From contig JAUIII010000002.1 in NCBI GenBank assembly GCA_030431855.1, positions 1 through 64,000 on the forward strand: DNA of 64,000 bases. The letters are read 5' to 3'. Below are positions 4,099 to 24,332 of this stretch, piece after piece (the first letter of the stretch is position 1; the number at the start of each line of letters is the position of its first letter). This DNA is from a bacterium (GTDB taxonomy: Bacteria > Patescibacteriota > Saccharimonadia > Saccharimonadales > Saccharimonadaceae). The translations under genes and the position numbers were made by a program. The notes under the pieces are model-generated. The model saw only the letters and a list, made by a program, of their open reading frames with translations. It was not told the DNA's origin and made no database searches.

Positions 4099-4503
4099 AT
4101 GTTGAAAGTTATAAAAGCCTTTGCCCCAAGTATCCTGAGTGCCGCATTCGTCCTTGCTGTCGCCGCTGCACCTCTGGTAGGTGCATTTGATGGCACAGTG
4201 CAAGACGGTGCCGACGCAGCACGTGGCGCACAACAATCAGCCGATCTATTTGGTAGTAGCGGTATTTTCCGCACCATTACAAATGTACTGCTGTTTGTTC
4301 TAGGTGCTGTATCGGTCATTATGATTATTATTGGTGGCCTGCGCTATGTGATTTCAGGTGGCAACTCTACCGCTGTGACAGCGGCGAAAAATACCATACT
4401 GTATGCAATTGTCGGTGTAATCGTGGCCTTGTTAGCCTATGCAATCATCAACTTTGTGCTGAACAGCTTTGCAAGCAGCGGCACTGGTGGCACAAACGTC
4501 TAA
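4099..4503 (+). CDS. T4SS pilin-like protein (TrbC/VirB2-like), orphan copy
   Basis: Signal-like N-terminus; ITNVLLFVLGAVSVIMIIIGGLRYVISGGNSTAVTAAKNTILYAIVGVIVALLAYAIINFVLNSF, closely matching the ORF at 7190-7600. Confidence 0.85.
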   Translation: MLKVIKAFAPSILSAAFVLAVAAAPLVGAFDGTVQDGADAARGAQQSADLFGSSGIFRTITNVLLFVLGAVSVIMIIIGGLRYVISGGNSTAVTAAKNTILYAIVGVIVALLAYAIINFVLNSFASSGTGGTNV

Positions 4504-4709: not shown

Positions 4710-4797
4710 TGGCGGAGGAGGAGGGATTCGAACCCTCGAAGCCTCTCAGCTTGCCGGTTTTCAAGACCGGTGGAATAAACCACTATCCGACTCCTCC
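4710..4797 (-). tRNA. tRNA-Ser (anticodon TGA), CCA encoded
   Basis: Reverse complement GGAGGAGTCGGATAGTGGTTTATTCCACCGGTCTTGAAAACCGGCAAGCTGAGAGGCTTCGAGGGTTCGAATCCCTCCTCCTCCGCCA; anticodon loop CTTGAAA. Confidence 0.95.
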
Positions 4798-5766
4798 ATA
4801 GGTAATAAACCTTTCTACGTGTTTCGGGTTACTACTTCCAATTATTCTAAAGTATTTCTCTATATCTGTAAATCTCTCTATTGATACGCTTCTGGACTGG
4901 CGAATTTTAGCGTGTATTCCAAAATGACATAGTGTCTCATGCACCGAATCTAAAAGCGTTTGTGAACCACTTACAAACATCATCCTTGGATATGCGTACG
5001 TACCGTTTTTGGTGTTGTGTTTCTCAAGAAAGATGCTCCCATCTGTGTCAAATAACCCTCTGATACAGGGAACTAAAAGGTCGTCCTCGTTACGAATCCA
5101 GTCGGGTACATCCAAGCCGCCGCGTAGTTTGTCTCCATATGGCAAGCCTTTTCTGTGTAAAAACTCGACGAGATTTGCGCTCGAAAACACTATGTTTACA
5201 CATTTTGCAGATTTACGATAAGTAAGCCTCGGCCGGATACTGAACAGCTTTTCTCCAAGCTCAGCAACAAATTCCACATAAGCTGCGTCGTCAACCGAGT
5301 TTAATGAGATTACTAATTGGTACTTTGATACACCTCCGTCCCCCATACATATGCCTACAAACTCAGCCAGGTCTGTATCTTCACCTGGAAGCGAGATTGC
5401 TTTTCGTGTGTATATGCTAGGTTTAGTTTTTCGGAGCTCGAAGGACACTTGGCCGCCCTTCATTTTGTCGTCTATTGAACCCAAAATTCCATACTTTGCC
5501 CAATACTGTCTGCCGCCAATTTTACCTGCATTAGATTTCATAGTTTTCTCATCAATTGTCTCGTACTCGAACTCAGATTCGTGAAGATTTGATAACTCAC
5601 ACAGTTGATTAAACACACGTAACGGTATCGAGTGACGACCAGCTCTCCAGTCTCTTAAAGTCCTTGGACTACATGCGAGTATTTCGGCTAGTTCGCTTAA
5701 TTCATAAGATGTACTTAACAGAGAAAATAATCGACTTAAACTTTCAGGAGCAAGTATCACACGCAT
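4783..5766 (-). CDS. LAGLIDADG-type (homing endonuclease-like) protein with N-terminal HTH-like region
   Basis: Two LAGLIDADG-like motifs, LAEFVGICMGDGGV and VPCIRGLFDTDGSIF; N-terminus ELAEILACSPRTLRDWRAGRHSIPLRV is HTH-like; stop codon lies inside tRNA-Ser(UGA). Confidence 0.8.
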   Translation of the reverse strand: MRVILAPESLSRLFSLLSTSYELSELAEILACSPRTLRDWRAGRHSIPLRVFNQLCELSNLHESEFEYETIDEKTMKSNAGKIGGRQYWAKYGILGSIDDKMKGGQVSFELRKTKPSIYTRKAISLPGEDTDLAEFVGICMGDGGVSKYQLVISLNSVDDAAYVEFVAELGEKLFSIRPRLTYRKSAKCVNIVFSSANLVEFLHRKGLPYGDKLRGGLDVPDWIRNEDDLLVPCIRGLFDTDGSIFLEKHNTKNGTYAYPRMMFVSGSQTLLDSVHETLCHFGIHAKIRQSRSVSIERFTDIEKYFRIIGSSNPKHVERFITYGGVG

Positions 5767-8726: not shown

Positions 8727-9167
8727 CTATTTTATATTACCTGCTATCAGAGTCACAATGGCGATGGAGAGGAACGATAAAACGAGCCCGACAACTGCAT
8801 TCTGTATAGTTGTGCGCGCAGCGGTGATTTTATTGGCATCAGATGCAACCGTCAGGTATTTAAATCCACCGTAAATAATAAACCCAGCTGATATGTACGC
8901 TACCAGCTGCAAGGCAATCTCGAGTACGTTGAGTACAATTCGAAAAATATAGCGCGTTAGTTTGGTTTCTTCATTACCCCCTAGTTTTGACGGGCTCTTT
9001 AATCGACAGTTGCCATCGGTAAGTCCGTCGTACCAGGCAGGGAAGGTAAGAAAGCTACTGCTACATTTGCCCGCTGCATGCGCGCTGGGCGACAAGGCCA
9101 CCATGCCGGCGCCAAACGATACCACCATCATTGCAGCCACCATCAGTTGCTTTATACGGTTAATCAC
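8727..9167 (-). CDS. T4SS pilin-like protein (divergent; probable GTG start)
   Basis: VAYISAGFIIYGGFKYLTVASDANKITAARTTIQNAVVGLVLSFLSIAIVTLIAGNIK; GGAGGAGT upstream of GTGATTAACCG. Confidence 0.8.
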   Translation of the reverse strand: MINRIKQLMVAAMMVVSFGAGMVALSPSAHAAGKCSSSFLTFPAWYDGLTDGNCRLKSPSKLGGNEETKLTRYIFRIVLNVLEIALQLVAYISAGFIIYGGFKYLTVASDANKITAARTTIQNAVVGLVLSFLSIAIVTLIAGNIK

Positions 9168-9697
9168 GAGAACACTCCTCCTGGAATAATAAAGTTGAGT
9201 AGAGACCACATGAGAATAAACATCACGAGGCCAATAACGACATTGGTAATAATCTGCTTCGCTTGGCTCACTTGCTCGTTCTTGTCTTCGGCGCTGGCAT
9301 ATAAAATCGATGCGTACACAATGCCGCCCACGGCGACCACGCCGATTCCCGCCGTCAGTAGATTAATCGCGATCAACAGCAGTTTCCACACGCCGTTATC
9401 CTCTACGTCGGTACCGTTGTCACACAGGCTTGAAGGCAAAATTGAGGTTGCACAGCCGGGGTCGGCAGACCCCGTACTTGTCGATGCCGCTTTCGGAGCA
9501 GTGTAGCCACCGTGGCCCTTACAAGCTTTTTGGTAATCTTTTAGCGTGAAGGTGCTGCCAGATCGCGTAGCGGTGACCTTTTTGCCATCGTTACACACTA
9601 CCTTGGTCGTAGCTGGGTCGGCAAAGGCAGTTTGCACGCTAATAAACGCGAACAACGCGCTCAAGCTAACAAGTCGAATTATTTTTTTGTATTTCAT
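9164..9697 (-). CDS. T4SS pilin-like protein with extended N-terminal domain
   Basis: Signal peptide; GIGVVAVGGIVYASILYASAEDKNEQVSQAKQIITNVVIGLVMFILMWSLLNFIIPGGVF. Confidence 0.8.
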   Translation of the reverse strand: MKYKKIIRLVSLSALFAFISVQTAFADPATTKVVCNDGKKVTATRSGSTFTLKDYQKACKGHGGYTAPKAASTSTGSADPGCATSILPSSLCDNGTDVEDNGVWKLLLIAINLLTAGIGVVAVGGIVYASILYASAEDKNEQVSQAKQIITNVVIGLVMFILMWSLLNFIIPGGVFS

Positions 9698-9819: not shown

Positions 9820-12800
9820 ATGTGGGAAGCTCTAATACAGCGCCCGCGCGGTAGAATATTCGCGCGGAATTTACTCATGATGCTCGCCACCTTTTTCGTG
9901 GCGTCCCTTGCTGGTAGTACCTCTGTTTCAGCCGTCCCTGGCCCAGACGACCTAAAGCACAGCGCCAACTGGAACGGCAGCGTAATTAGCTACAATGCAA
10001 CAGATTACACTGGCCCGGTGACCGCCCGCAACAACGACCCGTCCACGCTTCCACAAGGCACCATCTACTTCTACACATTTGATGCTACCTCTAGTACCAA
10101 AACAACTGGCTACCTGATCTCATTCAAAAAGGGAACCAACCTCAGCAAAGCCACCTCGGCTACCTACCAAACAGGCGACTACGATATCAACAGCGGCCGC
10201 TTTAGCAATCTGTCCCCGCCCGAAACCATAGAAGTTGACGCTTCAACCTACGGTAGCGCGGCTGCTGTTCAGGCCACCTCGTGTGACGTTGACGGCATTG
10301 GCTGGCTAGTGTGCCCGGTCTCGAATTGGATAGCAAATGGTATCGACGCGCTATACGGCGTGCTGACCAATTTCCTTACCGTAACACCACTTACCACAAG
10401 CAACGGCAGCCTATACACTGCATGGAAGTTTGCCTTGAATATCGCAAACATCAGCTTCATCCTTGGTTTCTTAGTGATTATCTACTACTACCTGGCTGGC
10501 ACTGTAGAAGGCAAATACACCATCCGAAAAATTGTACCGCGCGTCGTAATAGTGGCGATACTGGTGAACGTTTCCTACTGGGTGTGTGCTGTTGCTGTTG
10601 ATATTTCCAACATCCTCGGCTACTCGGTACAAGAAATGTTCACGACACTACGCGACCAGCTAGGCGCGGCCAATTCAGCGGCCGACGATATTGGCTGGAA
10701 GGCTGTCACCGCTGTTGCGCTCGGTGGGGGTGGGGCTGCCTATGCTGGTCTGGCCGGCATTGCAGGCGCAACTGCGCTGGGCGGCACCAGCATGTCACTT
10801 CTTCTCATGGCTGCACTTGTGCCTGTATTATTCGCCATCTTTGTTGCGGTAGCCGTTCTAGCTGCACGCCAGGCGCTTATTACCATTTTCATCATTATCT
10901 CACCTCTAGCGTTCGCTATGTACTTGCTACCAAATACCGAAGAGTGGTTTGGCAGGTGGCGCAAGCTATTTGTTTCGATGCTCATTATGTTCCCGGCGTT
11001 TTCAGCCATCTTTGGCGGTTCTCAGCTGGCCGGTGTTATTATCATCCAAAATGCACCGAATAGCCCGTACGGCCTAGCCATTGTTATCCTGGGGCTTGTT
11101 GTTCAGGCGATTCCACTGTTTATCACGCCGTTCTTGATTCGTCTCTCAAGCGGTCTACTAGGTACCATTGCAGGTCTTGCAAACGATCGTTCAAAGGGTA
11201 TCTTCGACCGCACACAAAACATGCTGCGCGACCGCGCCGAAGACCAAAAGGCCCGTGTTATGAAAAACCAGCCCCACCGAGCCAACCTGTGGCGACGCGC
11301 TGGTAATCACTACGGCATGAGCAAGCATAACCGTGAGCGTTTGCGTGCTGCTCGTATGGCACAAGCCGAGGCAAACTACGACCGCACACGACGCGGTTAC
11401 CGTGCGTACGAAGAGGGTCGCCTAGGTGAAGACCAAAAAGAAGCCGCTAAAAACGCCAACGAAAAGCAGCTACAAAAGCGTATTAGCGGCAACTACGACT
11501 ACTCGGACCTTAGCCGACGCGAACGCGCCTCGCCTCTGCATGCCATGCGCCAGGAAAATAAATACGCCGACTGGCGCGAACGGCTGCATGAATCACACGC
11601 CGATTCTGTAGGTGCCGATATTATGAAGCAAAAGATTCACGACGAGGGCGAGCGCCATGTTCGTAAAGATATTGCAACTGGTTCAGACTCATACAACCGA
11701 GCGCTGCGTGGCATGCAACAGCAATCTGTTGCCGATAAGGGTGTCGCCGAGTTGTACAAGGGCAGAGTTGAGGCCCAGGGCGAGAAACAATTCAGAAAAG
11801 AAGTGGCCGATTCGCGTGAGCTGACTCGTGTCGTGAAAGATAGCTACCACGACAAGAAAATGGCCGAATCGTACCAGACGATTGTTGATAAGGCCGCCGA
11901 GAAGAGCTGGAGCAACCGCGTACGCAACGACGATGCGACTCAAACCCTGTATCTGCGCGCCAAGCGGAATGAAGATGGCGCCGAGCTAGCCGAACAACAG
12001 GTTAAAGAGTTCGTGCAGAATGTGCGCACCCAAGGTGGCACCGCGCCGGGCGTCGCAGCCAGCGCAATTGGCTACGCAGATAATATTAAGACGATTTACA
12101 CCGAGACTGATATATCGAAGAATGCCGAAGCTGCGGCCCAGAAACTCGAGCAAATTGAACTGGCCAAAGCCTACGAAGGCAACGCACAGCTGCGCCGACG
12201 GGCAGGTGGTATCGGTGGTGAAGCGGCAGCCAACCTGGTGTTCGCGAAGGCCAAGCAAACCATTATCAACAACCAAATCGAAGGTACCAAAGCTGAAAAG
12301 AGTATTCTTACGCAGACCGATTCAAGCGAGCTATTCGCCGGCATGGACGACCCAACCAAATCTGTCGAGCAGCTAGCTGCCTACGCCGGTACCATTGCCG
12401 AGCGTGGTTACCACGCCGACCACGTACGCTTGCTAGATAAAGTAAGCCGCATGTACCAAGATGCCGAAGCATCAGGCGACGCCGAGCGTATTGGCGTGAT
12501 GAAAGATGTGATTCAACAAGTAAAGGCAGACCTATCGAAAGACGCCTTCGGTATTAGTGATACCGACCGCACACTACTGAGCGAAGGTCGCTACAACACC
12601 AATATCTACGAAAGTACCCGCGACCGCATAATGACCAACCTGTCTGTTGAAGCTATGTCTCAACTCGACCCAGACGATATGTACCTACTGTACGAGATGG
12701 ACCAAAAGGGCTTCCTAACCCAAGAACAGCACGACAAGATTGTTGAGACATACAACAAATGGAAGGTACACGAAGTGCTTGGACCAAAACTGAAAGACAA

Positions 12801-12939
12801 GCAAAGGAATGTGTACGAACGAATGATTGATCCAACCATTCGTGGTGTGTGGAACGATAATAAAGAACCGCCTCGTGACCTCTACCACGTGGAAGATGGC
12901 ATCAAGCTGACAAGGCCGTCTCGCCCTTACACGCCGTAG
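9820..12939 (+). CDS. VirB6/TrbL-like multi-TM protein with long charged C-terminal region
   Basis: Signal peptide, multiple TM segments including AILVNVSYWVCAVAVDISNI, long Arg/Lys/Glu-rich C-terminus. Confidence 0.78.
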   Translation: MWEALIQRPRGRIFARNLLMMLATFFVASLAGSTSVSAVPGPDDLKHSANWNGSVISYNATDYTGPVTARNNDPSTLPQGTIYFYTFDATSSTKTTGYLISFKKGTNLSKATSATYQTGDYDINSGRFSNLSPPETIEVDASTYGSAAAVQATSCDVDGIGWLVCPVSNWIANGIDALYGVLTNFLTVTPLTTSNGSLYTAWKFALNIANISFILGFLVIIYYYLAGTVEGKYTIRKIVPRVVIVAILVNVSYWVCAVAVDISNILGYSVQEMFTTLRDQLGAANSAADDIGWKAVTAVALGGGGAAYAGLAGIAGATALGGTSMSLLLMAALVPVLFAIFVAVAVLAARQALITIFIIISPLAFAMYLLPNTEEWFGRWRKLFVSMLIMFPAFSAIFGGSQLAGVIIIQNAPNSPYGLAIVILGLVVQAIPLFITPFLIRLSSGLLGTIAGLANDRSKGIFDRTQNMLRDRAEDQKARVMKNQPHRANLWRRAGNHYGMSKHNRERLRAARMAQAEANYDRTRRGYRAYEEGRLGEDQKEAAKNANEKQLQKRISGNYDYSDLSRRERASPLHAMRQENKYADWRERLHESHADSVGADIMKQKIHDEGERHVRKDIATGSDSYNRALRGMQQQSVADKGVAELYKGRVEAQGEKQFRKEVADSRELTRVVKDSYHDKKMAESYQTIVDKAAEKSWSNRVRNDDATQTLYLRAKRNEDGAELAEQQVKEFVQNVRTQGGTAPGVAASAIGYADNIKTIYTETDISKNAEAAAQKLEQIELAKAYEGNAQLRRRAGGIGGEAAANLVFAKAKQTIINNQIEGTKAEKSILTQTDSSELFAGMDDPTKSVEQLAAYAGTIAERGYHADHVRLLDKVSRMYQDAEASGDAERIGVMKDVIQQVKADLSKDAFGISDTDRTLLSEGRYNTNIYESTRDRIMTNLSVEAMSQLDPDDMYLLYEMDQKGFLTQEQHDKIVETYNKWKVHEVLGPKLKDKQRNVYERMIDPTIRGVWNDNKEPPRDLYHVEDGIKLTRPSRPYTP

Positions 12940-13951: not shown

Positions 13952-16717
13952 TTGATGAAGCATTATACTACAAAAGTAGTTATGGTTAAAATAAATACCG
14001 TTATTCAGCGCACTGGCATATATCTATTAGTAGGTTTGCTGCTGACGACCCTTCTCAGCACTATGCTTTCCTCGGTTGCCCGGGCAGATGGACAAAATGG
14101 ATCGGCCATCAACTCAGAGTTGAATTCGAAGGTGCTTGACCATCAGTTGTATTTCTTCCTAGTATCATGCGCCGCGCAGGTAGACATGGACAAAACCACC
14201 AATGATGAGGTTGATGCATGGGAATGGTTTTACAGAGGTGACTATACAAAAGATGCTGTACGTGGCGACATGTACGACAACGGCGAGGTAGACTGTGCCA
14301 GGGGCGGCTTTATTCGTGAGGCATTCGGCCGATTCGGGTTTAGCGACCCTCGCACTACAATTTGTAGCCTGGATTTTGTGTACCACACGGAAACAGGTGG
14401 GCTAGGCAAAACGGTGAATGGCGGCAACAACGCCGCAGCCTGTGAAAGCGGATTTGATCAAGATGGCGGCCATATCGAGGGAGCAGGTAGCGAAGATACA
14501 GCTCGCGAGAATCAGCGAACAGCAATGATTAATCTGCTCGGGTCTACTGCTGCAGGCAAGGCTGCCGCACTGCCACTCACACCAGAAGCCGAGTACATTC
14601 GAAAATACCGCACCCTGATGAATGGCTGCCAGATAAACTTAATTCGAAAGATTACGCAGGATAGCTCGGCAGCCACTGGCAACGCACAGCTATTTAAGAT
14701 ACCCGTGGTGAACTCAGACGGCAGTGTGGAGTGGTGGCTAGGCGAGGCACCATGGAGTAATGCTGATAGTCGCAAACAGCTGCTAGTAGCCACCACGTCT
14801 ACCAAGTCAACCGAAGACCACAAGGAAATCTCCTGCGGCAAACTCTCTACCGATCTACAAGGCGGGCTGTACAAGAGCTACGCGACCTTCGTAGAAGCTC
14901 ATCCCGACGATCCGTATTCAGACGTCGGCACTAAGGATGACGACGACACGACAACCAGCTGTAAGGTTGACGGCGTTGGCTGGATTGTATGCCCCGTGAT
15001 GAATTTCATCGCCGAGCTGAACGAACAAGCCTTTGGGCAATTACAAAAATTCTTGGTTATCGAGCCAGAGCTGCTAACGCAGAGCGCATCGAAAGTCGCC
15101 TGGCAGACCTTCCGAGACTTTGCCAACGCCGCCTTTGTGGTTGCGTTTCTGATTATTATCTACTCGCAACTCACTGGTGCCGGCATTACCAATTACGGCG
15201 TGAAGAAAATGCTGCCAAAACTGGTGGTAGCAGCTATACTGGTAAACGTTTCATATTATGTGTGTCAGCTTGCGGTTGATATTAGCAATATTGCCGGCGC
15301 CAGTATTTATGATATGTTTAAAAACATTCCGATTGGGCCAGACGGTAAAAGTCCGGGCGAAATAGGCAGCCAGTGGCAGTCGATAGCGTTTGCTATCTTG
15401 GCAACGGGCGCAACCGCGGCTCTGCTGGCGTTGGTAATCTTCGCGCCAATGACTATGCTGGCAGTTGGCCTGGCACTAATGATATTGATAGCCCGCAAGG
15501 CTTTCCTAATCCTTCTCGTAGTTATCTCGCCACTTGCGTTTGTTGCCTACCTACTACCCAACACCGAACAGTGGTTTAAACGGTGGTGGAAAGCATTTTC
15601 AACGCTATTAGTACTCTACGTAGTAATCGCCGCGATATTTGGCGGCAGCTACTTAGCGTCGAATATTCTGATGCAAACGGCCGAATGTAGCGGAGCAGAC
15701 TGTGCCGGCGACGACCAACAGCTGCTGGCAATTACCGCCATGGCGGTGATGGCTATCCCGCTATTTGCCGTTCCCACCATTACCAAGGGCGCGTTGTCTG
15801 CTGCGGGCAGCGTGGGCGCCAAGCTGTCTGGCTTACAAAATAGCCTGGATAAACGTGGGCTTGGACAAGCCAAGCAAAGGTACGACAACACCGCCTTTGC
15901 ACGTGGTCGCGCTGCCCGCAAGCAAGGAAAGCAGAATTACCGTGATAAGAAATTTGCCGAAGCTCTTGCTGGACAAGGTGACGGTCGCATAGATAAGGCA
16001 CTGGGTAGGGCTCGTCGCACCGCCGCGCGAGGACTACCTGGCATAATGCCCGGTACAAGAGAAGCTCTCGAAAAAATTGACACCAACGCGCTAACGGCGT
16101 ATGACAAGGCCTTCGAAGAAGACGTGCGAGCAGCAAGCTTACGTCAATCAGGGCTTAGCAACGCCCAAGTTTCTACGATAAGCAGGTATGGATTAGTCGA
16201 CAAGGACGGTCCAAACCAACGAAAGGCAACCACCCATGAATTAGCGGCTGCCACCGACAGAATCATGGCTACGGGCAGCTTCGACGAGCGAAAATATGCC
16301 CTTGAATGGCTGGCCGAGAACAAAGGAGATGAGCGCAATACAGAGGCGTTGCGAGCACGTGCAGCTGGTGGCGCCGCCAAGCGTGGTGATGGCAATATAT
16401 ATGGTAAAGGCTTTGCCAACAAGATTACCGAAGAGGGCCCCGGTACAGTTAATAGCGCCCAAGATCTTGCTGCTGAAGCAATGATAAATGCCAAGGGTGG
16501 TAACATCTCAGCTGAACACTTGGTGCAGAGTGATAGCGCGACCGAATACGTGGTAGCTGCTGCTACAGGCACTGATTACAAGGGCAAGGTCTTCACCACC
16601 GGTGATGCTGATGCCAAGAAGTATGTGAAGGAAGCAGCGGATCGCGCGACGGCAGCAGACAGCCAGGTACTCGACAAGGTTAGCGAACGAAGCAAGACTG
16701 CGTTTGGCAAGCTGTAG
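13952..16717 (+). CDS. second VirB6/TrbL-like multi-TM protein
   Basis: Shares with the first copy CxVDGVGWIVCPVMNFIA, AAILVNVSYYVCQLAVDISNIAG, ISPLAFVAYLLPNTEQWFKRWWKAF. Confidence 0.78.
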   Translation: MMKHYTTKVVMVKINTVIQRTGIYLLVGLLLTTLLSTMLSSVARADGQNGSAINSELNSKVLDHQLYFFLVSCAAQVDMDKTTNDEVDAWEWFYRGDYTKDAVRGDMYDNGEVDCARGGFIREAFGRFGFSDPRTTICSLDFVYHTETGGLGKTVNGGNNAAACESGFDQDGGHIEGAGSEDTARENQRTAMINLLGSTAAGKAAALPLTPEAEYIRKYRTLMNGCQINLIRKITQDSSAATGNAQLFKIPVVNSDGSVEWWLGEAPWSNADSRKQLLVATTSTKSTEDHKEISCGKLSTDLQGGLYKSYATFVEAHPDDPYSDVGTKDDDDTTTSCKVDGVGWIVCPVMNFIAELNEQAFGQLQKFLVIEPELLTQSASKVAWQTFRDFANAAFVVAFLIIIYSQLTGAGITNYGVKKMLPKLVVAAILVNVSYYVCQLAVDISNIAGASIYDMFKNIPIGPDGKSPGEIGSQWQSIAFAILATGATAALLALVIFAPMTMLAVGLALMILIARKAFLILLVVISPLAFVAYLLPNTEQWFKRWWKAFSTLLVLYVVIAAIFGGSYLASNILMQTAECSGADCAGDDQQLLAITAMAVMAIPLFAVPTITKGALSAAGSVGAKLSGLQNSLDKRGLGQAKQRYDNTAFARGRAARKQGKQNYRDKKFAEALAGQGDGRIDKALGRARRTAARGLPGIMPGTREALEKIDTNALTAYDKAFEEDVRAASLRQSGLSNAQVSTISRYGLVDKDGPNQRKATTHELAAATDRIMATGSFDERKYALEWLAENKGDERNTEALRARAAGGAAKRGDGNIYGKGFANKITEEGPGTVNSAQDLAAEAMINAKGGNISAEHLVQSDSATEYVVAAATGTDYKGKVFTTGDADAKKYVKEAADRATAADSQVLDKVSERSKTAFGKL

Positions 16718-16756: not shown

Positions 16757-17710
16757 ATGGCTGTGTACAAAGTACCGCAAGATGTTGAGGCCGACGACAA
16801 ACTCATCGGCCCCTTTAGCTTTCGCCAGTTTATCTACCTAATGATAGTGGCAGCGGGCCTAGCGATGGGGTATTTCCTAAGCCGCCTATTTGCACCGCTC
16901 GCCATTATCCCAGCGCCTATTGTCATCTTTTTTGGCGCGTTGGCATTGCCGCTGCGAAAAGACCAGCCTATGGAAACCTACCTCGCGGCCATTGTATCGT
17001 TTTATTTAAAGCCACGCCGCAGGCTATGGGACCCAGACGGCGCCGACGATTTAGTACAAATAACGGCACCCAGAGTCGTCGAAGTACAGCGAGTGAAAGA
17101 TTTATCTCAAAGCGAGGCCGAGCAACGACTTAGTTACCTGGCGAATATTGTTGATACCCGCGGTTGGGCCGTGCGCGGCGTTGATGGCCAAATGCCAGGG
17201 GCGGGCAGCGCTATGAATACCGACGTATATAACGAAGCACAGCAAACACAAGATATTTTAGACGCCAGCGGCACGATAGGCCAAACCTTCGACGCCAAAC
17301 TAGACCAAGCCAACGCAAAATACCACGAACAGATGCTAGCGCGCGTGCGACAGCCACAAGCAACACAACAACCGGTGGCCGACCCCTATGCAAGCTTGCC
17401 CACGGAGCCAAGTAACCCAGTAGCTAGCCAACCCGCAGCCGATACCAGCAACGACCCACACGTCACGTTCAACCCGTATCCAGTCATGCACCAATCTGTT
17501 GTAACACCGGTCGATCCAAACGCGCCAAAGCAAGAGCCAGCAGCAGCAAGCGCAAAACAGGAAAACACTAGCGCTAAAGAGGTGTCCCCTGATATAATAA
17601 ACCTTGCAAACAACTCTGATTTGTCTGTGGAGACGATTGCGCGTGAGGCGAATCGTATTCAGAAGAAGCAAGATCTAGAAGACGGCGAAGTCGTCATCTC
17701 GCTTCGCTAG
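16757..17710 (+). CDS. PrgI family protein
   Basis: YKVPQDVEADDKLIGPFSFRQFIYLMIVAAGLAMGY...PLRKDQPMETYLAAIVSFYLKPRRRLWDP. Confidence 0.85.
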   Translation: MAVYKVPQDVEADDKLIGPFSFRQFIYLMIVAAGLAMGYFLSRLFAPLAIIPAPIVIFFGALALPLRKDQPMETYLAAIVSFYLKPRRRLWDPDGADDLVQITAPRVVEVQRVKDLSQSEAEQRLSYLANIVDTRGWAVRGVDGQMPGAGSAMNTDVYNEAQQTQDILDASGTIGQTFDAKLDQANAKYHEQMLARVRQPQATQQPVADPYASLPTEPSNPVASQPAADTSNDPHVTFNPYPVMHQSVVTPVDPNAPKQEPAAASAKQENTSAKEVSPDIINLANNSDLSVETIAREANRIQKKQDLEDGEVVISLR

Positions 17711-17746: not shown

Positions 17747-18613
17747 GTGCCACCAGTAACAAATAACCAAACACCGCAGCCAGCTACACCTACACCGCTT
17801 GGTGCTGTTAATGGCGCCCCAGCCCCTCAGGCCCCTCAGGCACAAGCAGCGGCTAACGGCTCTGGGCCAGCCACAACGCCCGCGCCAAAGCCCGCCAACC
17901 CGAATTCGACACAAAACACCCTGCAAATATCAGAGGTACGCGAAAATATGGCGATTATGCGCGACGGTAGTTTTCGAGCTATCGTGGCCTGTAAGTCTAT
18001 CAATTTCGACCTTATGAGCTCGCGCGAGCGTGAAGGCGTGGAATACAGCTACCAAAACTTTTTGAATTCACTGTACTTTCCAGTACAGATATTTATTCGT
18101 TCTCAGCGAGTAGACATTGGGCCGTATATTGACCGCCTGGTAGACATGCGCCGCAACCAAGACAACATGCTACTTGGTGTATTAATGGATGATTACATCA
18201 ACTTTATCGATGCGCTTGCCCAAGAGGCAAACATTATGGATAAAAGTTTCTTTATAGTGGTGCCGTACTACCCATCAGGTGATTTAAGCGACCTGCGCGA
18301 CCAAGCCAAAGGCTTTTTCGGCAAAATATTTTCCAAGCCAAGCAACGAAACAATCAAGATTGACGAGGCTGCCTATCAAAAGGCTCGTGAAGAGATAAAA
18401 AACCGTGTAGACGCCGTAATGAGCGGTTTGTTTCAGATGGGTGTTAAAAGCGTGCAGCTAAATACCAAGGAGCTCGGCGAGCTGTACTACAACATGTACA
18501 ACCCCGACACCGCCGTGCGCGAACCACTGGGCGATTTTGAAACGATAACCAGTACCTACGTAAAGAAAGGGCAAGTGCCTACCGCGCCAACCCAACAAGG
18601 TGGAGCAGCCTGA
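17747..18613 (+). CDS. TraC-like protein (VirB4 partner), probable GTG start
   Basis: LQISEVRENMAIMRDGSFRAIVACKSINFDLMSSREREGVEYSYQNFLNSLYFPVQIFIRSQRVDI. Confidence 0.75.
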   Translation: MPPVTNNQTPQPATPTPLGAVNGAPAPQAPQAQAAANGSGPATTPAPKPANPNSTQNTLQISEVRENMAIMRDGSFRAIVACKSINFDLMSSREREGVEYSYQNFLNSLYFPVQIFIRSQRVDIGPYIDRLVDMRRNQDNMLLGVLMDDYINFIDALAQEANIMDKSFFIVVPYYPSGDLSDLRDQAKGFFGKIFSKPSNETIKIDEAAYQKAREEIKNRVDAVMSGLFQMGVKSVQLNTKELGELYYNMYNPDTAVREPLGDFETITSTYVKKGQVPTAPTQQGGAA

Positions 18614-20547
18614 TGGCCAAGAAGCTTGATCCAGTAGATATCGCCGCTCAACAACGCGCCAAAGAACAGGCCGAGGTAGAGCAGGCGTTCTTGAAGGGGG
18701 TTACCACGCTACGTGATTTGATTGCCCCAAGCAGCCTTGAAATTCATTCAAGCCACTTCCGCCTAGGCACCAAGTACGGCAGAACACTATACGTATACGG
18801 CTACCCTCGCCAAATCTATACTGGCTGGCTATCAAGTATCATCAACATCGACGAAGTGCTGGATATCTCAATGTTCGTCTACCCGGTTGAAAGCCAGGTG
18901 GTACTAAACAACTTGCGGAAAAAAGTAACTCAGCTTGAAGCCAGCATGGCGATTAACCAAGAGAAGGGACGCACGCGTGACCCTGGACTTGAGGTTGCAA
19001 TTCAAGACGCCGAAGAGCTTCGTGACCAACTACAGGTTGGCTCCGAGCGTTTTTTCCGATATGGACTGTATATCACGCTGTACGCTGACAGTATGGACGA
19101 ACTGAGTTTCGTGCAACATAAAATTGAAACTATTTTTGGTCAGCAACTCGTATTTAGCAAAGTGGCTTCAAGCCAACAAGAACAAGGCCTCAACAGCACG
19201 ATTCCCCAGATGACCGACCAGCTGCAGATTCGCCGCAACATGAACACAGGCGCGATTTCTACTAGTTTCCCGTTCACGAGCGCCGACCTTACCGACAACA
19301 AAGGTATTTTGTATGGCATCAACATGCACAACAACGGCTTGGTCATTTTCGACCGTTTTACCCTAGAAAACGCCAACATGGTGGTATTTGCGAAGTCTGG
19401 TGCAGGTAAGTCGTTTACCGTGAAGCTTGAAGCCGTTCGTAGCATGATGACCGGTGCGGATATTTTGATTATTGACCCGGAAAACGAATACCAAAAACTG
19501 TCCGACGCGGTGGGTGGTAGTTACATTCGCCTAAGCCTCAATAGCGACACGCGTATCAATCCGTTTGATTTACCTCGCGTTATCGATACTGAAGAAGCCG
19601 ACGATGCCCTGCGCGCCAACCTTGTAACGCTGCACGGCTTGCTACGCCTTATGCTTGGCGGTAGCCAGATGACTGCTGATGGCCAGATGATTGCCGGCCT
19701 TAGCCCAGCCGAAGAAGCCGACCTCGATCAAGGGCTCATCGATACGTATGCTCGCGCCGGTATTACCTCAGATCCGCTGACGCATAATTCAACGCCGCCT
19801 ACCATTTCTGACTTGTACGATACCCTGCTACACATGGGTGGCACGGGGCCACAACTTGCGCAGCGACTGCGTAAATACACCAGCGGTACGTTTGCTGGCA
19901 TCTTCTCGCAGCAGAGCAATATCGACATCAACAACCACATGGTGGTATTCAACATTCGTGACCTTGAGGATGAACTGCGGCCTGTTGCAATGTACATTGT
20001 CTTGTCCCACATTTGGAACATTACTCGTAGCGACCAGCGCAAGCGCATGTTGATCGTTGATGAGGCATGGCAACTGATGAAATACGACGACAGTGCAAAC
20101 TTTTTGTTCAGCCTAGCAAAGCGCGCTCGTAAGTATCAGCTTGGCCTTACCACTATCACACAAGACGTAGAAGATTTTATGGGAAGCAAAATGGGCCGCG
20201 CGATTGTCGCCAACAGCTCTATGCAACTACTGCTAAAGCAGTCGTCAAGCGCGGTTGATGTGCTGTCTGATGTGTTTAAACTAACCGAGGAAGAACGCAA
20301 ACGACTGGCGAACTTCCCAGTAGGCCAAGGCTTGTTCTTCGCCGGACAAAACCACGTACATATACAAATTGTCGCCAGCCAAACCGAACAGGGCCTCGTG
20401 ACAACCGGTGGCTCAGCCCCGAGCGCACAACCACAACCTATGCCAGAACAGCCCGCCGAACAACTACCACCACAGCAGGCGCAACAAGGTGGCCAGCCAG
20501 CCGTAAACCCAGGCTATATGGAGCCAGGGGAGTATAGTATTCGCTAG
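18613..20547 (+). CDS. virB4: VirB4-family T4SS ATPase
   Basis: Walker A FAKSGAGKSFTVK; Walker B RMLIVDEAWQLM; ITQDVEDFMGSKMGRAIVANSSMQLLLKQS. Confidence 0.93.
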   Translation: MAKKLDPVDIAAQQRAKEQAEVEQAFLKGVTTLRDLIAPSSLEIHSSHFRLGTKYGRTLYVYGYPRQIYTGWLSSIINIDEVLDISMFVYPVESQVVLNNLRKKVTQLEASMAINQEKGRTRDPGLEVAIQDAEELRDQLQVGSERFFRYGLYITLYADSMDELSFVQHKIETIFGQQLVFSKVASSQQEQGLNSTIPQMTDQLQIRRNMNTGAISTSFPFTSADLTDNKGILYGINMHNNGLVIFDRFTLENANMVVFAKSGAGKSFTVKLEAVRSMMTGADILIIDPENEYQKLSDAVGGSYIRLSLNSDTRINPFDLPRVIDTEEADDALRANLVTLHGLLRLMLGGSQMTADGQMIAGLSPAEEADLDQGLIDTYARAGITSDPLTHNSTPPTISDLYDTLLHMGGTGPQLAQRLRKYTSGTFAGIFSQQSNIDINNHMVVFNIRDLEDELRPVAMYIVLSHIWNITRSDQRKRMLIVDEAWQLMKYDDSANFLFSLAKRARKYQLGLTTITQDVEDFMGSKMGRAIVANSSMQLLLKQSSSAVDVLSDVFKLTEEERKRLANFPVGQGLFFAGQNHVHIQIVASQTEQGLVTTGGSAPSAQPQPMPEQPAEQLPPQQAQQGGQPAVNPGYMEPGEYSIR

Positions 20548-20555
20548 GAGTCTCT

Positions 20556-23500
20556 ATGCCCGATACAGATACCGATAACGACCTACAGCGTGAAGACCGA
20601 ATCGATGAGCGCCTTAATAAGCGGTTTGATATTACGTCTCGTCCGGGTTCTCAAGGCACCGCCAAAGACCTACAATCCAGAGAGTCGAATACAGGTAGTG
20701 CGTATACCCAGGCCGGTATCGACCAGGCCCATGCCTTTGCGAATGACAAAAACAATGCCAGTGCCGCACTAGGCAGCCAAGAAGATAACCCCTACAGCTA
20801 CGCGCCCGGCGGCTCAAATAAAAAGCCACGTAAAAAGATGTTCAAATCTGCCGTTACTCGTAGCGCGGTCGCCTTTATTGTCGTGCTCATCCTTGGCCCA
20901 CTCGGTGCTTTTTTGATGTTTATCAGTAACCCGCTGTTATCGATAGTCGAGAACGCGACACTAAGCAACGACTCACGCTCATCATTTCTTGAACGCCGGT
21001 TGGTAAAAGTGCTCGACCGCAAGGCAAAGCACGCCACCGACAAAAATATCGCGAAATCTATCGAGACTGTATCGGGTAGGCTAAATGCATTTCCGAATAA
21101 GTTACTGCTTGAAATGGACAAAGCAGGCCTAAAGCCGGTGGGAGCGGGTGATTACTCAAGCGGAAAGGGCTACAGTGAAAAACCCCCGACCCACGTCGAG
21201 GTAAAAGACACAGGTAAGCGTATCGCCATTCCTGATTTGCCAGACGCCCTGCGGAACGACTCAGCCGTACGAACATCTGTGGCGAAGGCGGTTGATGTGA
21301 GGTTCCGCGCCTACACCGGCAAGTTTATGAGTAAAGTGTTTTTCTCTGTTCGTAATATTAGCAAAAGTGGTGGCGTGATAGATGGTACCGATGAAAAAAC
21401 AGACGTCAAAAAGCTGAACGAAAAGATAAAAACACTCACTAGCGCCGAAACTGAATTTAAAGACGCCAATGCTGTAAAAAGTAGGCTAAATCCACTACTG
21501 GAAGACGTGCTAAAAAAGCAAGCGACAAAGGCTACCAAAACCGGCGATCCGATATTGATGGCGGGTGGTGCGGGTTGTATGGCAATTAATGGCCCGCGCA
21601 CCATTGCATCGGTAATACGCGGCGTTCTTTTGGGGCAGGCTGTGTTAGCCGCATCTGATATAGTTCTTTCACCTGGGCATAAAATTAAAGCAGGTGAGGC
21701 AACACCGGAAGAAGCCGGGGCGGCCGCTTCGGCCCTCACGGCTACCGATAGCAATGGCAAATCGGCGCTTGATTCGCCAATACTGCAAAGTGCTTTGGGT
21801 ATAAACAAGAACAAGGTAGAACTCGGCGCTTGGGTCGCCGCCTATAGCTTTATGTCGAGCGCGCTTGTGCAAAGCTCGATGGTAGCCGGTGCCGCTTCGC
21901 GACCAGGTTGCGACGCGATACTCAGTCCACAGGCTTTTGCCGTTTCGGCCGCCATATCGGCAGCATCGGCGGCGACCGGCCCAGGTGCAGCCGCCTACAA
22001 TGCAGCCAAAGCGGCCGCATGGGTACTGATAAAGTTCAAGGGCGCCGAGCTAGCAATCAACGCATTAGCTCCGCTTGCTGCCACTGTTGCCACGCTGATA
22101 CTGGCGAAAACCGGTGCGGGTGACTTGTTGGTGAAGTTGATTCAATACAATGCGAAGCAAGGTGAAGACCTTGGCAACTATCTGGGCATGGCGTTGCTAG
22201 CGTTCTTTTCTGACGCCGGCCTAAAAGCCTACACGCCAGCACTCACAAAAGAACAGCTTGCCACATACAACGCGACCGTGCTAACTCCATCACAACTTGC
22301 ATACCAACAAGAAATACGCTCAAACCTTAGTCCATTCGACACCTCCAGCCAGTACACCTTTATGGGTAGTATCGCCTCAAAGTTCCGCTCTAGCCTAGGC
22401 AGCAACCCAATGCAACTATCTAACGCTCTTTCAAGCGTCATCCGGATTCCATCAATGGCACTTTCGTTCACGTCGCCGAATACGTTCGCCGCAGCGCCTA
22501 CACATGACTACAGCGAAGAATGTGGGTTTGGAACGTCAAAGGTAGCCTTGAATGCCGCTTGTACCCCTTATATAGGAATGCCTGCCGAGTTTATCGACAT
22601 GGATAGCGAGGAAGCCGAGTCGCTCATCGATAGCGATGCCATCGACCAGACCGCAACTGACCCAAATGATGCAATAGACCCAGAAAGCGAACTAGGACTT
22701 AAGCTTTCAGAGTGTGCCAGCGGTGCCATCGAAGTGCTCGATGGCTGTACCATACAAACAGTGAGCGGAGGCGGCTCTTCAACCTTGTCTCCATCAGAGA
22801 TAGCACAGCAATGTAGCAACGTTGGTGACATCGAAAATGACGATCAAGCAAAACAAGCCTACGAAAACTGCGTTGAGGCGCTTTCAAACACTAACACCCG
22901 CAAGCAACCAAAGAGTGCTAGAAAAAATGCCGCCGACTTTAACTTTGCGACCGATCTGCAAATTGAATCGATTTTGAGCGGTGAAGATGACGAGCCCATA
23001 GCAAGTGCAAATGCAAGCGCAGGTGAGTTTACCATGTCATCCTACAATATACTGAGGGTTACAGACAAGAAACACACTGCCGAGGTGTGTCGAGCTCTTG
23101 GGCTACCAAACAACCAGGTGTGTACGGCACGCCGCATTCAAAATCAAGCAAACATCATTAATGGTAAAACCGAACTAAACAATAAGCCATTTGACCTTGT
23201 TATGACACAGGAGATGACTCCAGAAAATTACAGAGAGATGAAAAAGGTCCTCCCAGATTTTGACAGTTCAGTAAATGAGGAATATGGCATTTTCTGGAGA
23301 AAATCAACGTTCCCCGAAAAGTTTGAAGAGGGAACGGTGGCATCAAACAGCGGTAGTGGACGAACGCTGCAGGCGCCCTGGGTAGGCCTAAAATCGGCAT
23401 CTGGTCAAACTGTCTATGCACTATCCTTTCACTATTCTTCGTTCGCACAATTTAACGGATCGCCAGCCGAAACCACTAAAGGCGCCAAGCGCACGCTTGA

Positions 23501-24332
23501 TTGGGTAAGGTCGAAAAATAGCGACGATGCAATTGTGGTTATTGGAGGTGATGCTGGATACTTTTCACGATCAGCGGCTAGAGTGTTTAATGGTAGCGGC
23601 ATCCTAGAGAATGCCGGCCTAATGGCAGAAGGTAAGCCCTCCAAGGGTGATGAGAAGGCGGTTGGTGCCGACCAACTATACATAACTCCGAAATTTAACC
23701 TGACTGTACAGGACTACAAACGACCGCCAGAAACACCAGGATCAATCGTAGTAAAGGCATCAGATCACGCCCCCGTGTACGGTACAGTAGTCATACCGGG
23801 TGTAACATCAGCGGCGACCTCAGCCGGTAACATATCGTGGCCTGTCGACAAAAAGTGGTGGACAAGAAATAAAACTGAATTTATAGAGGCACACGGGGTT
23901 ACCTCTGGATCCTGGACAAATGGAAAGGCCGGGATTGCAGCAGACCTGAGTCTTCCTGCGGGCACCCCAGTATACGCGATGTTCGGCGGCGCAGTGAGCA
24001 GGGCAGACTTAAGGTCATCGGTGGGTGGACCGCACGGTTTAGCGATTAAGTCTAACGTGCAGGGTGGCGTATTAGAAGTAGCCTACGCACACGGCCCAAG
24101 AACAGACAGAGCCAAGTCATATAACGCAGGTGACAAAATCATGAACGTAGGATCCCTTGGAAATAGCACAGGTAACCATGTTCATATTGATATGTCTTTT
24201 AATGGAAAAGCTGTATGTCCACAGGATGTATTTATAGCGATGGGAAACGGGCAAACGCCAAACTTCTCTGAATTAACAAAAAAAGCAAAAGCTCCGTGCG
24301 GAAGGGTGCAGTATGCGTTTAGCCCGGCTTAG
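20556..24332 (+). CDS. large membrane protein with C-terminal endonuclease/exonuclease/phosphatase (EEP)-like domain and M23-like domain
   Basis: TM near N-terminus; EEP-like motifs SYNILRV, LVMTQE, ALSFHYSS, IVVIGGD, GADQLYIT, KASDHAPVYGTV; M23-like GTPVYAMFGGAVSRA...GPHGLAIKS...AYAHG...GNSTGNHVHIDM. Confidence 0.75.
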   Translation: MPDTDTDNDLQREDRIDERLNKRFDITSRPGSQGTAKDLQSRESNTGSAYTQAGIDQAHAFANDKNNASAALGSQEDNPYSYAPGGSNKKPRKKMFKSAVTRSAVAFIVVLILGPLGAFLMFISNPLLSIVENATLSNDSRSSFLERRLVKVLDRKAKHATDKNIAKSIETVSGRLNAFPNKLLLEMDKAGLKPVGAGDYSSGKGYSEKPPTHVEVKDTGKRIAIPDLPDALRNDSAVRTSVAKAVDVRFRAYTGKFMSKVFFSVRNISKSGGVIDGTDEKTDVKKLNEKIKTLTSAETEFKDANAVKSRLNPLLEDVLKKQATKATKTGDPILMAGGAGCMAINGPRTIASVIRGVLLGQAVLAASDIVLSPGHKIKAGEATPEEAGAAASALTATDSNGKSALDSPILQSALGINKNKVELGAWVAAYSFMSSALVQSSMVAGAASRPGCDAILSPQAFAVSAAISAASAATGPGAAAYNAAKAAAWVLIKFKGAELAINALAPLAATVATLILAKTGAGDLLVKLIQYNAKQGEDLGNYLGMALLAFFSDAGLKAYTPALTKEQLATYNATVLTPSQLAYQQEIRSNLSPFDTSSQYTFMGSIASKFRSSLGSNPMQLSNALSSVIRIPSMALSFTSPNTFAAAPTHDYSEECGFGTSKVALNAACTPYIGMPAEFIDMDSEEAESLIDSDAIDQTATDPNDAIDPESELGLKLSECASGAIEVLDGCTIQTVSGGGSSTLSPSEIAQQCSNVGDIENDDQAKQAYENCVEALSNTNTRKQPKSARKNAADFNFATDLQIESILSGEDDEPIASANASAGEFTMSSYNILRVTDKKHTAEVCRALGLPNNQVCTARRIQNQANIINGKTELNNKPFDLVMTQEMTPENYREMKKVLPDFDSSVNEEYGIFWRKSTFPEKFEEGTVASNSGSGRTLQAPWVGLKSASGQTVYALSFHYSSFAQFNGSPAETTKGAKRTLDWVRSKNSDDAIVVIGGDAGYFSRSAARVFNGSGILENAGLMAEGKPSKGDEKAVGADQLYITPKFNLTVQDYKRPPETPGSIVVKASDHAPVYGTVVIPGVTSAATSAGNISWPVDKKWWTRNKTEFIEAHGVTSGSWTNGKAGIAADLSLPAGTPVYAMFGGAVSRADLRSSVGGPHGLAIKSNVQGGVLEVAYAHGPRTDRAKSYNAGDKIMNVGSLGNSTGNHVHIDMSFNGKAVCPQDVFIAMGNGQTPNFSELTKKAKAPCGRVQYAFSPA

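Follow-up and report, generated by a model that had tools for sequence, protein, structure and literature searches.

A membrane protein with EEP and M23 domains in a changeable hydrolase slot behind VirB4 of Saccharimonadia type IV secretion loci

We have analyzed a gene for a 1258 aa membrane protein encoded next to VirB4 in a type IV secretion system (T4SS) locus of a Saccharimonadaceae genome (GenBank assembly GCA_030431855.1; 830 kb, 28 contigs). The stretch of DNA examined, referred to here as the window, comprises positions 1 to 64,000 of contig JAUIII010000002.1. Behind a large N-terminal core the protein carries a domain of the EEP (DNase I-like) fold and an M23 peptidase domain, and both assignments are far beyond chance. 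In comparison with its relatives it appears as a fast-diverging membrane core with a fixed place behind VirB4 and interchangeable C-terminal enzyme domains. We read it as the protein of the VirB1 slot of the Saccharimonadia T4SS, a module that would open the envelope and whose EEP domain is probably weak or inactive in the window copy; we give this reading as a whole a probability of about one half. The hydrolase-slot variability, the mosaicism, the plasmid parallels and the motif states of the window copy are new here. The coordinates of all features are collected in Table 1.

Domain architecture

The original prediction had proposed a DNase I-type domain fused to an M23-like region on the basis of short landmarks, every one of which is present in the order stated. 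Alone, the window EEP domain matched neither Pfam nor, by phmmer, any sequence in the PDB, and relatives were therefore collected to check the claim. Catalytic EEP positions are conserved in the resulting alignment of 11 domains (A1), ten of which match PF03372 (Exo_endo_phos; best E value 4.9e-14), the window copy being the one that does not. Searched against the PDB, the A1 profile found 3g6s (1.7e-25), 3mpr (4.6e-18) and 4c1r (1.5e-17), with weaker matches to TDP2 (~4e-10), DNase I (0.02) and CdtB (0.12). The AlphaFold2 model of the window domain, a check that had been proposed for the C-terminal region, displays the four-layer EEP fold (pTM 0.85, pLDDT 79). All 50 of the 50 Foldseek matches listed for this model are EEP-type proteins, the best folds among them being 3mpr and 3g6s (TM score 0.75). 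By fold and ancestry the window domain thus belongs to the EEP superfamily, but its active site is incomplete.

The M23 domain gives the sole Pfam match of the protein (PF01551, residues 1129-1222, E value 7.4e-9; 36.1 bits against a curated cut-off of 28.7), and its profile matches the LytM structure 2b0p at 7.2e-11. The core is mostly helical, with conserved cysteines at positions 341, 452 and 720; the model of residues 1-723 (20556-22724; pLDDT 73, pTM 0.73) shows a membrane protein composed entirely of helices. The membrane protein of the original prediction is supported, hydropathy giving one main transmembrane segment, and the C-terminus is presumably extracytoplasmic; we infer that it lies outside the cell. 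Neither by sequence nor by Foldseek fold search did the core match any PDB entry significantly, and it is therefore not assigned to VirB6, VirB8 or another T4SS part. Although this large helical core with its conserved cysteines keeps the same position in almost every family genome examined, no relative with a solved structure was detected.

A changeable slot behind VirB4

Placement in a T4SS locus, also part of the original prediction, is borne out by the PrgI, VirB4 and VirB6-like proteins and the pilins encoded nearby, a co-occurrence characteristic of the MPF_FATA-like T4SS of Patescibacteria. The genes run in the order PrgI, TrsD-like, VirB4, core-EEP-M23 and lysozyme, and synteny from PrgI through TrsD, VirB4 and the core to the lysozyme extends across the family. 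A wall-hydrolase domain is encoded within the T4SS operon, as expected of a VirB1-like protein. The cluster is the T4SS of Patescibacteria that has been described before, usually without a relaxase (PMC12102498).

VirB4 was found at E<=1e-100 in 260 of 295 family genomes. A search for homologues beside other VirB4 genes, as had been suggested, showed that a core with a hydrolase tail recurs across the family: in 60 further regions VirB4 is nearly always followed by a core of ~1000 aa, with a lysozyme gene next to it downstream. Pfam domains in 55 core C-terminal tails were M23 (15), VanY (10), NlpC (2), M15 (2), amidase_2 (1) and CHAP (1). The 55 genes that follow carried Phage_lysozyme2 (43), C39 (9), NlpC (7), glucosaminidase (6) and CHAP (6), and more rarely M23 (4), amidase_3 (3), GDSL (3) and GH3 (1). 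EEP domains occupy the core slot in the genus of the window and in a few others, as a single copy in the window and at loci L036, L038, L040, L089, L092, L093 and L094, as two copies at L035, L037, L039, L041, L086 and L088, and as three at L085. The lysozyme gene itself carries an EEP domain at L037, L038, L092, L098 and L100; its inserts at other loci include GDPD (L093), GDSL (L048) and amidase_3 (L036, L043). The slot behind VirB4 is a changeable hydrolase cassette, holding zero to three EEPs, M23, VanY, CHAP, amidase or GH43.

Several unusual arrangements were seen among the relatives. A partial protein beside a lysozyme gene (L044:11185-12159, minus strand) joins GH43 to an M23 domain of the window type, a glycan-cleaving alternative to EEP, and a core protein at L045:6172-9999 (minus strand) ends in a BSP-type metallopeptidase domain placed behind a canonical M23. 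L087, L090, L091 and L095 are loci of their own, apart from the main T4SS cluster, where a single protein carries EEP and M23, together with NlpC/P60 at L090 and L091; by eye the neighbours resemble an actinobacterial-type conjugative element, and three neighbours at L091 gave no Pfam match. A 440 aa protein (L099:7739-9061, plus strand) combines a pilin-like N-terminus (PF18895, 7.9e-6, slightly under the cut-off) with an EEP domain; it lies in a housekeeping neighbourhood outside a T4SS cluster, and L097 encodes a single-transmembrane EEP protein in similar surroundings.

Divergence and mosaicism

Within the genus, median pairwise identities over nine loci were 93% for VirB4, 82% for DnaA, 80% for TrsD and 69% for PrgI among the conserved genes, and 46.5% for M23, 35.5% for EEP, 30% for the core and 28% for the lysozyme protein among the variable parts. 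The window core is closest to that of L092 (45% over 807 aa), which however has a different type of M23 (30%); the window M23 is closest to that of L035 (57%), where the core is only about 25% identical; and the window EEP is closest to that of L036 (30%). Since core, M23 and EEP have three different nearest relatives, exchange of modules among relatives would be the simplest reading.

Many of these loci come from metagenome bins and the window genome is itself in 28 contigs, which could suggest that fusion and mosaic are artefacts of assembly. However, the same architecture is found, with intact open reading frames, in one- to three-contig genomes (G072, G049 and G017) and in several genera, and related architectures occur in isolate plasmids; on this evidence an artefact was rejected as extremely improbable. 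Variable C-terminal enzymes on an N-terminal carrier also resemble polymorphic toxins, and the C-terminal domains might be an antibacterial effector, released from the core and delivered into a host or rival cell. But the core diverges as fast as its tips, the gene is followed directly by the lysozyme gene rather than by a small immunity-like gene, and most cargos in the slot are wall hydrolases typical of VirB1, all of which makes a released effector very doubtful.

Active sites of the EEP and M23 domains

The GDxN motif of the window EEP is degenerate. Its Asn, which all other copies extending to the motif retain, is lost, and the full catalytic set (N, E, H, GDxN, D, DH) is thus incomplete; the remaining landmarks (N, QE, H, D, SDH) are intact. 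The Asn of GDxN is important for catalysis in EEP enzymes such as APE1 and DNase I, and with its loss the window EEP is probably impaired, that is, weak or inactive. Most EEP copies are only ~20-40% identical and GDxN is still present in all other readable ones, which suggests that catalysis has been selected in the relatives. That the window EEP, and this copy only, is a pseudo-enzyme serving as a recognition or spacer module has in our estimate an even chance, and is compatible with the envelope-opening reading. Its standing as the sole copy without the Asn, its long branch (1.34) in a tree of 39 EEPs and the precedent of the T4SS hydrolase PrgK, whose degenerate LytM domain appears to regulate the neighbouring muramidase (PMC11323569), all favour such a role; the landmarks that it keeps and its good fold model do not, and some residual or altered activity is possible.

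The original prediction saw in the EEP domain an enzyme that degrades nucleic acid. Developed further, this would make it a surface nuclease acting on host or environmental DNA or RNA and feeding nucleotides to an organism unable to make them. In favour of it, the EEP fold includes many nucleases, TDP2 and more weakly DNase I are matched by the A1 profile, and Saccharibacteria cannot synthesise nucleotides de novo (PMC10633639). However, the GDxN Asn is missing from the window copy. The solved EEPs nearest in sequence are not DNase I but Bacteroides proteins of uncharacterised function and a mannosyl-6-phosphatase, and the other domains that occupy these slots are hydrolases of walls, glycans or lipids. 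Moreover, loss of comEC leaves the viability of S. epibionticum unaffected (PMC12857230). Nuclease activity of the window copy is unlikely on these sequences, and so is the surface nuclease as a general account of the domain.

In the M23 domain the His of HxxxD is replaced by Gly, and this His is missing throughout the M23 group of the window; the Asp and the HxH motif are present. His1113, D1130, H1179, H1208 and H1210 are invariant in all 11 M23 domains of alignment A6. Only four His columns are invariant in this group, namely the three other active-site His and a displaced one, His1113, which sits 14-24 residues ahead of the Asp in 11 of 11 and may replace the missing first zinc ligand. The predicted M23 domain therefore stands, but that it is an ordinary active M23 is not supported, since HxxxD has lost its canonical His, for which the displaced His may substitute; an earlier assignment of the domain as simply inactive was softened once the displaced His appeared. 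A second M23 protein of the same genome, with M23 and FG-GAP repeats, lies outside the T4SS cluster (G000:C25:9502-9858; locus L101:6350-7852).

Parallels in actinobacterial plasmids

EEP-bearing proteins were found by tblastn in Pimelobacter simplex pA-N39, Nocardioides pCHL and pNOCA01, and Paenarthrobacter pTC1; no relative was found in viral contigs, and phages gave M23-sized matches only. The pA-N39 protein has two EEPs and M23, while those of pNOCA01 and pTC1 have two EEPs with SLT and CHAP. In pNOCA01 and pCHL the EEP gene comes after an ATP-binding VirB4-like gene and before that of a TraM-type coupling protein; pTC1 has its ATP-binding gene a few genes upstream and a TraG-family gene downstream, and the pA-N39 locus is similar to these. 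Both pNOCA01 and pTC1 are typed as conjugative (MOBF). The tree of 39 EEPs places the domains from plasmids at two positions among those of Saccharimonadia, one of them beside the lysozyme-gene EEP of L038 with support of 100/100. Same-group EEPs sit in hydrolases of T4SS that have a MOBF relaxase and a coupling protein and export DNA. A conjugation machine that exports DNA would be an odd home for a DNase, which weighs against the surface nuclease and towards an envelope substrate.

Comparison with known systems

The original statement that the fusion is unfamiliar from T4SS machinery is not supported. Candidatus Southlakia epibionticum has homologues of a peptidase and a lysozyme immediately behind virB4, and both are essential (PMC12102498, citing Wang 2023, PMC10633639), as is its T4SS locus (PMC10633639); EEP-bearing hydrolases fill this slot in conjugative plasmids of actinobacteria. 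The T4SS of strain ML1 (SEML1_0006-0019), compared here by its published description, has the same gene order and position and is essential for epibiotic growth (PMC12102498, PMC10633639). Where they were searched, these two papers make no mention of an EEP domain, and our literature search found no paper describing EEP as part of a T4SS protein. As far as the literature searched shows, the EEP part is thus new for T4SS, while the peptidase/lysozyme position was already known.

PrgK of pCF10 (LytM-SLT-CHAP, MPF_FATA) is likewise a membrane protein linked to a T4SS, and several wall-hydrolase domains lie on its extracellular part, among them a LytM/M23 with an atypical active site (PMC11323569). 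It differs in having no EEP and in carrying on one protein what is here divided, the lysozyme and NlpC-like parts being encoded by the next gene. The LytM of PrgK lacks both HxxxD and HxH and appears regulatory (PMC11323569), whereas the window M23 keeps the Asp, YxH, HxH and the invariant displaced His. The hydrolases of pNOCA01, pTC1, pA-N39 and pCHL share with the window protein same-group EEPs, SLT/CHAP or M23 domains and a position behind a VirB4-like ATPase, but have no large helical core and contain two EEPs each with SLT and CHAP or with M23; relaxase and coupling protein are present in these plasmids. The closest solved sequences to the EEP profile, Bacteroides 3g6s and 3mpr and the mannosyl-6-phosphatase 4c1r, have no T4SS link to our knowledge; the window copy is about 16% identical in the structural alignment and is without the GDxN Asn. 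DNase I, CdtB and sphingomyelinase share the superfamily fold.

A proposed envelope-opening module

In the proposed mechanism the C-terminus, outside the cell, would open or modify the envelope where the bacterium meets its host, or the cell's own wall, and so let the T4SS or its pilus assemble and dock. M23 would cut peptide cross-links, while the EEPs of the relatives, as metal-dependent phosphodiesterases or phosphatases, would attack an envelope polymer or lipid that bears phosphate. Recombination would swap the modules, plausibly to fit different hosts. In this organism, where the EEP has lost the GDxN Asn and is probably weak or inactive, the enzymes likely to do the work are M23 and the lysozyme next to it.

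Several points weigh against this reading. Envelope action is argued from guilt by association, topology from hydropathy and the role of the displaced His from its conservation, and the core identities near 25-30% vary with how the sequences are aligned. Any EEP match was found in 31 of 394 family genomes; present in a minority and absent from most, EEP is not a required T4SS part. A scan of the EEPs for specificity with NCBIfam models gave weak, mostly nuclease-family matches (xth, best 1.4e-8), none near the curated cut-offs; six A1 members weakly matched exonuclease III models, a point in favour of the surface nuclease, and one relative only (L099, 0.0018) weakly matched the sphingomyelinase model. 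Sequence by itself does not identify a substrate for the EEP.

Features of the window

The neighbouring T4SS genes are listed with the domains in Table 1. Beside a pilin gene and a comFC-like gene the window also encodes a free-standing LAGLIDADG-type protein (4783-5766, minus strand; PF14528, 6.9e-10).

Table 1. Features of the T4SS locus and of the core-EEP-M23 gene (window coordinates)
Feature	Position	Strand	Evidence or remark
VirB4-adjacent membrane protein, core + EEP + M23, 1258 aa	20556..24332	+	Open reading frame and domain searches
N-terminal core, residues 1-819	20556..23012	+	
Main transmembrane (strongest hydrophobic) segment, residues 105-123	20868..20924	+	Hydropathy scan
EEP (DNase I-like fold) domain, residues 820-1082	23013..23801	+	
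Degenerate GDxN, G998-D999-A1000-G1001 (GDAG), Asn lost	23547..23558	+	Comparison of EEP copies
M23 domain, residues 1084-1251	23805..24308	+	Pfam match at 23940-24221
His1113, displaced invariant His, candidate substitute for first zinc ligand	23892..23894	+	A6 conservation
Next gene, phage-tail-lysozyme domain and weak NlpC/P60	24313..25578	+	Variable insert in relatives
VirB4 ATPase	18613..20547	+	TraG P-loop, 2.6e-28
TrsD-like protein	17747..18613	+	Named from position and conservation
PrgI/VirB3-like protein	16757..17710	+	Pfam, 6.3e-13
VirB6/TrbL-like membrane protein	13952..16717	+	Pfam, 1.5e-4, slightly under curated cut-off
Second VirB6-like protein	9820..12939	+	E 7e-56 to 5e-61 to paralogue; no Pfam match of its own
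T4SS pilin	9164..9697	-	PF18895
Further T4SS pilin, weaker match	8727-9209	-	
Further T4SS pilin, clear match	4099-4503	+	

Implications

A near-invariant motor (VirB4, 93%) beside a swappable enzymatic tip (30-46%) provides a concrete candidate for a host-specific part, and bears on how host-dependent Saccharibacteria breach and choose their hosts and on the role of their essential T4SS. We suggest only tentatively that the EEPs are a new class of T4SS-borne envelope enzymes whose target in Actinobacteria would be a wall polymer or lipid containing phosphate, and that with GH43, GDPD and GDSL they may form a host-range cassette swapped among Saccharibacteria and exchanged with conjugative plasmids of the host phylum. 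The contents of the slot supply a list of testable chemistries, and the EEP groups common to Saccharibacteria and actinobacterial conjugative plasmids suggest that envelope-breaching tools have been exchanged between the epibionts and their host phylum.

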